Shown: one piece after another, positions 8,901 to 11,900 of the stretch
Layout: every line of letters starts with the position of its first letter
Numbering within the stretch: the stretch's first letter is position 1
Assembly: GCF_964355755.1 (NCBI RefSeq)
Contig: NC_092676.1
Coordinates: forward strand, 64,501-128,500
From: Antedon mediterranea
Lineage: Eukaryota > Echinodermata > Crinoidea > Comatulida > Antedonidae
Reading direction: 5' to 3'
DNA length: 64,000 nt
Program-made: the position numbers and the translations under genes
The notes under the pieces: model-generated
Databases searched by the model: none
The model's input: only the letters and a program-made list of their open reading frames with translations
What the model was told of the DNA's origin: nothing

Positions 8901-11900
8901 TCTAGAATTCATGTAAACTTGAGTAGTACGTGAATACTTGGCATAATGTGCTATAATCCTTAATATTAGATTTATGAAATGTTTACCTTCTTTGGGTAGA
9001 AATTAAATATTTTAGCGGCATTGGTACTTGTAACAGCTACAAATCTACATGGATCCATCTTTCCTGTATACTGAAAACAAAATATAAATAATACATCTGA
9101 AAATAAACAGTAATCTTGTATAACATTAAACTAATAGACAGTTAACTACTGTGAAAAAATGGTCATCGTCGTAAAAATGTTATTTTTAATAAAACAATAA
9201 TTATAGTATATGAAATACACATTTGTTTTTAATACACTACAGTTTTCATCAAATTAAAATAACATACATAATTTCTTGTTAAAACCTTTTGGAATACAAG
9301 TAATAGTATATGGTACAATCACTAAGAAATTAAACAATTATAACAAATGTGATTAAGAATAAATAATTATCATTTTTGCTTACCACACCCTTCTCCCATA
9401 TGATTGACATTCTGTCTTCAACTCCATTAACACCATTGGGAATCTTTGTGAAATCATCTCTTCCAAGAGCTTTTTGATCAGGATTGAATGTACAATTATC
9501 TGTGCCAGTTAGGTGCAGATCGCCACTATATAAACAAATAGTTTGGAAATCATTGACAAATTATATTAGATATGGGATGTACAGTTAAATATCATTCATT
9601 AAAAAATCATTCGGTTTAATGTTTTAGGCTATGTTTCCAAAAAATGTTAACCAATCAGATAAGTGCGTATGATCAAACAATGAGAACACAATTTGTCCTT
9701 AAGGTCAAAGGTTCAAAATTATTGCATTTATTAGATAATTATCTTATTTGAATGAGATAGTTATCGGTTAATTTTTCTCTAATGGAAACTGTTTATCCTC
9801 GTTTCAACAGGATTTTATCGGTTAACTATTTTTTAATCTATCGGGTATTTTTTGCATTTTGCGGAAAAACAGCCTTAAGTAAAATACTTACTTCGCTAAA
9901 AGATCCATTAGATAGCCTGGTGTGGTAACATCGGGTCTAAGTGGAGGGCCCATAACATAAGCTGCAGCATGTTTCCAGTCTTTGTCCCAATAATGGGATC
10001 CATCAACCCCTAAAGATGCTGCAATTGGTTCCCCAAATACAACTTTGCCTACAACCAATTAATAATAATAATACAAATTTGTAATGTGCCAATTCCAGCA
10101 GTAAGTGGATGCGCAATGCGCGGTGTATGAGAGAGCTCAATTTTTAAAAAAAAGATGAGTTAAAGATGAGTTTTCAAGGCAGATTTAAAGGCGATAGTAG
10201 AAGAACATGATCTAATAGAGGCGGGTATGTCATTCCATAAGCGAGAGGCAGCAGAAGCAAAGGTGCTTAGGCCATACGTTAAAAGTCGGAATGGAAAGGA
10301 GATTTTTTTAAGACGAGCGAAGGCGACAATACCATTAATAAACAATTGAACAATGCAAATTAATGAATCAATGACATCATCAAACTATTACAAAACACAA
10401 ATTGTATTAGTTTTTACAAATGAAAGTGTAATATTATTTCAAATTAACTGTACAAAACTACAAATGAAACATAAAACAATTATAAAGTGTTTGTTTGGCC
10501 AAATAACCAAGAGTGTTAAAGCCAATTTAACATTATAATGAATAATGACATAGCAAAATACACTTACAACACCTATAATTTAAATTCAAATTGTTATAAT
10601 TTATTTTTTTTATTTTTAATTTTTTAAAGAAATTTAAGGAAAAAAATAATTTAATAAATGATTAAATACTGCAAGTCTTCTACATGTTTTGGTTGGTTTA
10701 AAACGTCTAAATTCGACAATAATATCTTTATTGCCAAAACATAATATACAAGAGATTACAAAATTTTACCAAAACATCATCATACACAACATTACATCAT
10801 GCAATGCACATTAATTACAGCATATATCAAGTTCTACCTCTCTGTCTAGCAGTAGCAACAGCATCAGCTGTTCCTTTGCTAGTGATCCGTACAATATAAA
10901 GTGGGCAGCCAGCCTGATTGGCCAGACAAATAGCGTTATTCACTGCTGCTACCTCAACCTTTACCGTCATAGCAAGAAATTAATAAATAAAATTATGTTA
11001 ATAACAAAATTGTATAATAATTTGAAAACTTGACTTCACACAGTAACTCTTTATGCAATATCAACCAGTATCAAGTATAACACAATTAAATAGTATTTCT
11101 ATACAATTTTGAAAAATTACTGAATGACAAACTATGTAATTAAGTCAAATAAATAAATAAAAACCTGATTTAAGTTGTAACTAATGCATAAAGAGTAACT
11201 ATTGAGAAGACAGCTCCACTTAAAAAGTTATTCATGTACCTTCCCTGCGAGCTTTACTAATTGCATTAGCAGCACTTTTACTCATGACATGAACAATGTA
11301 AAGTGGGCATTGTGCCTGGTTAGCAATCACTATAGCACGAGTTGTAGCTTCTTCTTCAACCTAAAGACAGCAAACATTGACAACTAATACAACATGCAAA
11401 ATACCCCACCCACTATCAAAACATCATAAACTTAACAGGATACATTTAAATCTGCTCATGTATGGCTAGGATCACTTTGGTGTAACAATAATTATATGGT
11501 TAAGTATAGACATGGAAAAAGAGAAAAGTTGATTCCTTTTTATTTTAGAACCAACAACCAGATTGCTACATTGGAAATGAAATAAACATAGTTGAATGTT
11601 CATCAGTAAATATCCAAAGGTTGTAATCAATGTTGTATGATGGTGTATTATTGGCCAAATCATTATGCTCAGTTAAAGCACAACATATTTCAATAAAGAC
11701 TCACCTCCTCTGGACGAGACAGTTCATGACCTTCTGGTCCTGTGATTCCTAAAGCTAGCATCTTTTTACAACACTGCAAACAAATATAAATATGTTTTGT
11801 TTTATTTCAGTACTTTAATAATATTATTACAACAATTTTGCATTAAGAATATTATGTGAACATTACATACCTCATTAATAAGATTTCCATTTTCAGCATG

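Follow-up and report, generated by a model that had tools for sequence, protein, structure and literature searches.

CRMPs are well-known pseudoenzymes of axon growth, and their origin is usually explained by gene duplication. The locus described here raises the question whether one gene can supply both the enzyme, dihydropyrimidinase (DHPase), and a CRMP-like non-enzyme. A single gene of the crinoid Antedon mediterranea probably encodes the two forms, as judged from sequence, by including either one or the other of two homologous 121-nt exons. For Drosophila, Morris et al. are said to have reported in 2012 that the CRMP gene uses paralogous exons to make DHP and CRMP isoforms. This type of switch is known from flies. 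In the literature searched, with subscription journals mostly outside that search, no description of an exon 8 switch outside flies was found, nor one of a unit of one exon, of the single crinoid gene or of Lys and Arg forms in several phyla. One 121-nt exon deciding between enzyme and non-enzyme, with Lys or Arg at the same position in several phyla, suggests that the pseudoenzyme may have started out as a splice form. Such an origin is directly testable from existing genomes and RNA-seq.

The window, that is, the whole 64-kb stretch of DNA analysed, contains a complete gene of the DHPase/CRMP family on the minus strand at 2895-23241. Nineteen coding exons were placed with AG/GT at the internal borders, plus a separate 21-nt microexon. 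Among the 19 are the pair 8a/8b and two alternatives each for the first and the last exon. Window coordinates are as follows:

22732..23241, minus: exon 1L, alternative first coding exon with a long N-terminus (in P0003; ATG to GT in frame with exon 2)
17809..17844, minus: exon 1S, alternative first coding exon (ATG to GT in frame with exon 2; RNVPK aligned to CRMP2 KNIPR)
13104..13198, minus: exon 2 (gene model)
12454..12638, minus: exon 3 with His74 and His76, equivalent to DHPase His67 and His69 (gene model, ligand alignment)
12202..12366, minus: exon 4 (gene model)
12051..12112, minus: exon 5 with Lys166, equivalent to the carboxylated Lys159 of DHPase (gene model, ligand alignment)
11871..11951, minus: exon 6 with His199, equivalent to DHPase His192 (gene model, ligand alignment)
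11705..11773, minus: exon 7 (gene model)
11240..11360, minus: exon 8a, 121 nt, VHVMSK, His255 kept, equivalent to DHPase His248 (gene model, translation)
10959..11239, minus: intron between 8a and 8b, 281 nt, holding a 19-nt inverted repeat
10838..10958, minus: exon 8b, 121 nt, VRITSK, ligand changed to Arg (gene model, translation, P0003)
9892..10048, minus: exon 9 (gene model)
9384..9525, minus: exon 10 with Asp333, equivalent to DHPase Asp326 (gene model, ligand alignment)
8987..9070, minus: exon 11 (gene model)
8783..8869, minus: exon 12 (gene model)
7364..7456, minus: exon 13 (gene model)
7184..7270, minus: exon 14 (gene model)
6710..6884, minus: exon 15, where the CRMP-type tail begins (gene model, CRMP2 alignment)
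6368..6456, minus: exon 16a, alternative last exon, ends in stop (gene model, second copy by tblastn)
5412..5432, minus: microexon of 21 nt, EMGPRYK (in P0003, located in the DNA)
2895..2980, minus: exon 16b, alternative last exon, ends in stop (gene model, P0003, second copy by tblastn)

Among solved structures the product is nearest to human dihydropyrimidinase, at 758 bits over residues 13-506, and to further DHPases. CRMP2 comes next, at 729 bits over residues 8-573, which take in the tail. P0003, 'dihydropyrimidinase-like isoform X2 [Antedon mediterranea]', is a public NCBI model prediction and consists of exons 1L, 2-7, 8b, 9-15, the microexon and 16b; exon 8b is matched in it at 100%. 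Exons 16a and 16b are homologous and each ends in the APPGG tail; P0003 uses 16b after the microexon at 5412-5432. The short and long first coding exons (17809-17844 and 22732-23241) recall the short and long CRMPs of vertebrates.

The Antedon assembly (354 Mb, 18 contigs), in which the window corresponds to C7:64501-128500, was searched with 547 residues of the 8a form. All 15 matches fell within this gene, one of them being 8b. A second gene of the DHPase/CRMP kind was not found by this protein search of the 354 Mb, in which the best 12 candidates were scored, so that a very diverged paralogue could be missed. A Pfam Amidohydro_1 search of the assembly yielded seven matches: this gene, one on C11, four on C3 and one on C5. 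By their short translations, the match on C11 is presumably CAD, the four on C3 urease and the one on C5 a deacetylase-like gene. If Antedon has a DHPase, the 8a form of the 8a/8b gene is most likely its source.

Exon 8a is flanked by ...tgctgtctttag upstream and gtacat downstream, exon 8b by ...gctatgacggtaaag and gtagaa. Pyrimidines occupy 12 of the 17 positions from -20 to -4 before 8a and 10 before 8b; the count is 10 for exons 9 and 10 and 8 for exons 6 and 16b. No pyrimidine run adjoins the AG of the 8b acceptor. The idea of a weak 8b acceptor was dropped because its pyrimidine count equals that of exons 9 and 10 and exceeds that of exons 6 and 16b. The two exons are alike in 21 of 40 codons and 73 of 121 nucleotides, with a dN of 0.44 and a dS of 1.31 (NG86). 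With 8a or 8b alone, all eight combinations of first and last exons are open to the end. With both or neither, all eight are frameshifted and contain 14-31 stops, and this makes the two exons functionally exclusive. A tblastn search of the window with the whole product found second copies of exon 8 and of the last exon and no further duplicated coding exons. The pair has the sequence properties expected of mutually exclusive exons: adjacency, homology, equal length, usable splice sites and a frame that admits a single exon. The preliminary description of this DNA had reported two adjacent homologous exons of exactly 121 nt with good splice sites, encoding VHVMSK and VRITSK, joined in phase to the same flanking exons and shifting the frame if both are included. 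Borders (11240-11360 and 10838-10958, minus strand), translations and the eight combinations on either side agree with it on each point.

The exchanged segment carries a metal ligand of the active site. An excerpt of PMC2999344 names His67, His69, Lys159, His192, His248 and Asp326 as the metal ligands of rat imidase (DHPase). Their equivalents in Antedon 8a numbering are His74, His76, Lys166, His199, His255 and Asp333, and all six are present in the 8a form. Five are constitutive in the gene; only the fifth in the series, the His248 equivalent, is changed by 8b, to Arg. Written as strings, the ligands are HHKHHD in the 8a form, as in human DPYS, HHKHRD in the 8b form and HRLHKA in human CRMP2. 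The 8b form lacks one of the six DHPase ligands and human CRMP2 four, namely Lys at the switched position plus three further losses. The excerpted text of PMC4051505 gives two of six ligands as retained in CRMP4. CRMPs are without DHPase activity, as PMC4051505 also has it; PMC7325199 puts this down to the loss of His69 and His248. CRMP2 shares the tail motifs SGFSLSGAQ-DDN and APPGG with the Antedon product and, like 8b, has a residue other than His at the switched ligand (Lys). The CRMP-type C-terminal tail including APPGG is present with either exon 8 and also in His-type invertebrate proteins; it is therefore no mark of 8b in particular.

For the 8b isoform P0003, AlphaFold2 gave a model with a mean pLDDT of 71.1, long disordered ends and a pTM of 0.67. 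Block means were 90-96 over residues 391-430 (8b); parts of exon 9 were lower (54-69). Across 8b, the model has a helix at 388-405, a strand at 409-414 and a helix at 417-428, with the switched residue 413 near the strand end. The swap would hence exchange one barrel strand together with its ligand.

The proposed mechanism treats exon 8 as a helix-strand-helix unit of the barrel whose strand has a metal ligand close to its end. With 8a included, the protein has six ligands and should be an active DHPase. With 8b, the His to Arg exchange would abolish or much reduce hydrolysis, and the fold and the CRMP-type tail would stay. Exclusivity would come from the frame, and a neural RBFOX-type factor may silence 8a and promote 8b. 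The switch may date to early bilaterians, and vertebrates would later have parted the two functions between genes. The reading of 8a as a predicted enzyme form and 8b as a predicted non-enzyme form is well supported at the level of sequence. The suggestion that one deuterostome gene yields an enzyme and a CRMP stands as far as a six-ligand and a His248-less form arise by the swap of one exon, but 8b does not have a vertebrate-type CRMP site, keeping five of six ligands compared with two in CRMP2. The pair is also a natural experiment on how DHPase activity depends on a single ligand.

Homologues of the 8a form were taken as the best 120 of 7970 matches from a database clustered at 90% identity; the clustering hides the partner isoform of each species. 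All six ligands are present in 102 of these best 120. Lys occupies the switched position in 13, of which 12 have the other five ligands intact (HHKHKD) and one, P0074 of Tachypleus, has two further ligand losses. The remaining rows among the best 120 of 7970 are one Antedon 8b (Arg) and four gastropod proteins with Pro. The gastropod proteins are P0086, P0090, P0096 and P0108; three of them have two further losses, and the Pro rows are predicted to be a pseudoenzyme form. Lys rows with names come from Amphiura, Acanthaster, Ptychodera, Saccoglossus, Sinanodonta, Lingula, Paralvinella, Octopus and Liolophura. Three more, P0041, P0051 and P0062, have their complete coding sequence within contigs of 2.3-2.4 kb and therefore look like transcripts. 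The Lys-type exon 8 is found in echinoderms, hemichordates, molluscs, one brachiopod and one annelid. Acanthaster X2, Amphiura X2, Ptychodera X4, Lingula X2 and Liolophura X1 are like Antedon 8b in that the same position is changed and the other five ligands are intact. They differ in having Lys where 8b has Arg, and each is the one representative of its 90% cluster. A search with the 8b segment did not find the Arg form outside Antedon; the one such protein among its 47 candidates was Antedon itself.

Pairs of a His and a non-His protein were compared exon by exon, with exon 9 excluded from the sum for the rest of the protein. In the starfish Asterias and Acanthaster, 25 of 41 residues of exon 8 are identical and 351 of 383 elsewhere (p 8e-7); exon 9 is 94% identical. 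Mya and P0041, which stand beside each other in the tree, gave 25 of 41 and 331 of 383 (p 1.5e-4), again with 94% in exon 9. The more distant pairs Haliotis/Sinanodonta and Crassostrea/Sinanodonta gave p 0.0028 and p 0.0031, and hemichordate pairs p 0.066 and 0.013. The annelids Capitella and Paralvinella had weak or no excess divergence in exon 8 (p 0.27), and no exon 8 dip was seen in five control pairs of the same state (p 0.33-0.93). A predicted swap of the whole segment at the exon 8 borders is clear in the starfish and Mya comparisons and suggestive in hemichordates. The Tachypleus pair showed no exon 8 divergence (38 of 41 identical, p 0.93). Its His protein P0061 and the Lys protein P0074 with its two ligand losses are encoded on different contigs, and the split into enzyme and non-enzyme in horseshoe crabs looks like a gene duplication.

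The Drosophila CRMP gene is like the Antedon gene in that one gene makes two forms, identical outside one segment, with the same ligand lost. In Drosophila miranda, D. obscura and Glossina, the two isoforms compared, which in each pair come from contigs of equal length, are identical except at residues 247-324. The switched ligand becomes Gly in the two Drosophila pairs and Arg in the Glossina pair, and the other five are unchanged in all three. The fly segment comprises part of exon 8 and exon 9, whereas Antedon swaps exon 8 alone (232-272). The parallel with flies drawn in the preliminary description therefore applies to the ligand, the His248 equivalent, but not to the exon unit. An excerpt of PMC7954323 describes the fly exon switch as a change from His to Gly at residue 192. 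A fly switch at another ligand was rejected, because the His of HAENG is unchanged in the pairs and the His248 equivalent is changed; residue 192 of that excerpt is taken as another numbering. Of 119 additional rows, 77 show His at this ligand and 42 another residue: 21 Gly, 14 Arg, three Ser, two Cys, one Lys and one misaligned (Arg in the pair comparison). Single rows with Arg come from tephritids, blowflies, Hermetia and Phlebotomus. In two mosquito pairs the N-terminus alone differs and His is kept. The exon 8 switch could be ancestral and have been rebuilt in Diptera, or flies could have evolved theirs anew.

In vertebrates, DPYS and DPYSL1-5 (CRMP1-5) are separate genes, in contrast to Antedon with both forms in one gene. 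Seven Drosophila and Zaprionus rows (P0184, P0187, P0188, P0190, P0197, P0200 and P0206) carry the fly non-His segment and have also lost the second His of the series, a constitutive one (to Ser, Arg, Asn or Gln). They therefore look like separate gene copies in which the alternative segment was fixed. In Zaprionus bogoriensis, the intact P0160 and the altered P0187 and P0206 are on different contigs. The seven copies possibly represent a fly replay of the vertebrate route.

The age of the switch was addressed by two kinds of tree, one built without exons 8 and 9 (the rest of the protein) and one of exon 8 with the ligand column removed, each compared with shuffled labels. A chosen set of 63 rows comprised 60 of 239 database proteins, Antedon 8a, human DPYS and CRMP2. 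Its rest-of-protein tree required 19 changes between His and non-His (shuffle mean 17.8), the exon 8 tree nine (mean 17.9; none of 300 shuffles as low). With fly rows and the Antedon pair removed (50 rows, 14 non-His), the numbers were 13 (mean 12.3) and seven (mean 12.4; none of 300). The 120 listed homologues, the best of 7970, less the four Pro rows gave a FastTree set of 116 rows with 13 changes on the rest of the protein (mean 13.4) and 11 on exon 8 (mean 13.3; 4 of 300 shuffles), a modest signal. Four control stretches of 40 columns showed no signal in the 116 rows (13-14 changes). Random sampling of an old alternative exon would produce such a pattern, interleaved on the rest of the protein and clustered on exon 8. 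Residues that co-vary functionally with Lys could account for part of the clustering.

These trees, with the exon 8 divergence of the starfish and Mya pairs, suggest an old exon switch in deuterostomes and lophotrochozoans. We give an even chance to a fuller scenario in which a one-exon switch of His248 was ancestral to bilaterians and was kept in echinoderms, hemichordates and lophotrochozoans. Vertebrates would have split the two forms, DPYS with the His exon and DPYSL with the Lys exon, and the CRMPs would have lost more ligands later. On this view the first CRMP would have been a splice form rather than the product of gene duplication. An ancestral state had been one of two possibilities named in the preliminary description, beside convergence with flies; the Lys-type exon 8 in several phyla, scattered on the rest-of-protein tree, speaks for it, but the age falls short of proof (AU p 0.25 and 0.49, below). 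On the proposed separation of vertebrate DPYS and DPYSL from such a gene, the trees give no decision. The best tree places CRMP2 with the chordate rows (SH-aLRT 93-94), and a tree with CRMP2 outside the remaining bilaterian rows fits just as well (AU p 0.49).

The main rival is convergence, in which exon 8 was duplicated independently several times, in echinoderms, molluscs and flies, since the His248 ligand is a cheap place to turn the enzyme off. It is a serious possibility, if a somewhat doubtful one. It fits the different borders of the fly cassette (residues 247-324), and exon 8 trees of 40 columns fail to resolve: a crinoid-only clade of 8a and 8b was not rejected (dlnL 16.5, AU p 0.25), nor was a clade of six deuterostome non-His rows (AU p 0.49). 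With fly rows set aside, the nearest exon 8 of five of six fly non-His rows is a crustacean His row, the first part of the exon being common to both fly isoforms. Against repeated origin, Antedon 8b is nearest to the Lys segment of Amphiura (BLOSUM 135, next 123) and not to Antedon 8a, though the pairing of 8b with Amphiura has a support of 45/0 in a careful exon 8 tree. In pairwise scores, the nearest exon 8 is that of another non-His row for 9 of the 15 non-fly non-His rows, some of these being close relatives, and that of a His row for six. The clustering of non-His rows on exon 8 beyond shuffles (0 of 300 and 4 of 300) also argues against convergence, though functional co-variation around Lys could produce it as well.

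Another explanation is that the switch tunes a still-active enzyme in its metal content or substrate and makes no non-enzyme. We consider this unlikely. Five of six ligands are kept in 8b and in the 12 HHKHKD proteins, and with five ligands left some activity of the 8b form is possible. An excerpt of PMC2999344 says that mammalian imidase contains a single metal ion; some of the ligands may therefore be dispensable. CRMP3 is reported as a histone deacetylase in PMC4051505 and PMC7325199. On the other side, the switched His belongs to the six metal coordinators and is Lys in CRMP1, according to the same excerpt of PMC2999344, and in CRMP2. The missing DHPase activity of CRMPs points the same way, though in these proteins other ligands are gone too. 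Decay or disuse of 8b, to which the lack of a pyrimidine run beside its AG and the restriction of the Arg form to Antedon in the 8b-segment search might point, is very improbable in view of its uninterrupted frame, its exact length, splice sites at both ends, a dN far lower than dS, inclusion in NCBI isoform X2 and an acceptor pyrimidine count equal to that of exons 9 and 10.

The exclusive use of 8a and 8b in one gene, the preferred reading, may be set by a regulator. RBFOX proteins silence an exon when bound upstream and enhance it when bound downstream. Two RBFOX-type motifs flank the pair:

11393..11398, minus: TGCATG, 32 nt before 8a (motif scan)
10798..10803, minus: TGCATG, 34 nt after 8b (motif scan)

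The scan was limited to TGCATG/GCATG, picked post hoc after the introns had been read. TGCATG occurs 15 times on the minus strand of the window, ten of these in or near the DHPase/CRMP gene and two of the ten in exons. At the window rate, the probability of both motifs within 60 nt is 1.9e-4, uncorrected. The local rate is about twice as high, which brings the probability nearer to 1e-3 and makes the coincidence only moderately rare. The motifs before 8a and after 8b weakly suggest a neural switch. The 8a/8b intron contains a 19-nt inverted repeat (11042-11060 and 11182-11200, 89% complementary), one of five inverted pairs listed in 9892-11705. Its predicted RNA fold has a z of -2.37, and 3 of 200 shuffles fold as well. 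The repeat is a possible structural aid.

Intron 12 has a 33-nt tandem array at 7502-8796 (39.4 copies, 94% match), whose unit holds a copy of the exon 12 end and the 5' splice site. The array contains 38 GTAAGT, and the frame of exon 12 stays open through 292 codons, of which 29 are its own, up to a stop. Use of each further donor would thus lengthen the product by 11 residues in the same frame. A 46-nt tandem array of 28 copies lies at 3748-5026 between the microexon and exon 16b. Two further open frames were seen on the minus strand of the window, a rhodopsin-family GPCR (PF00001) at 192-1172 and an MFS_5 transporter (PF05631) at 32944-34281.
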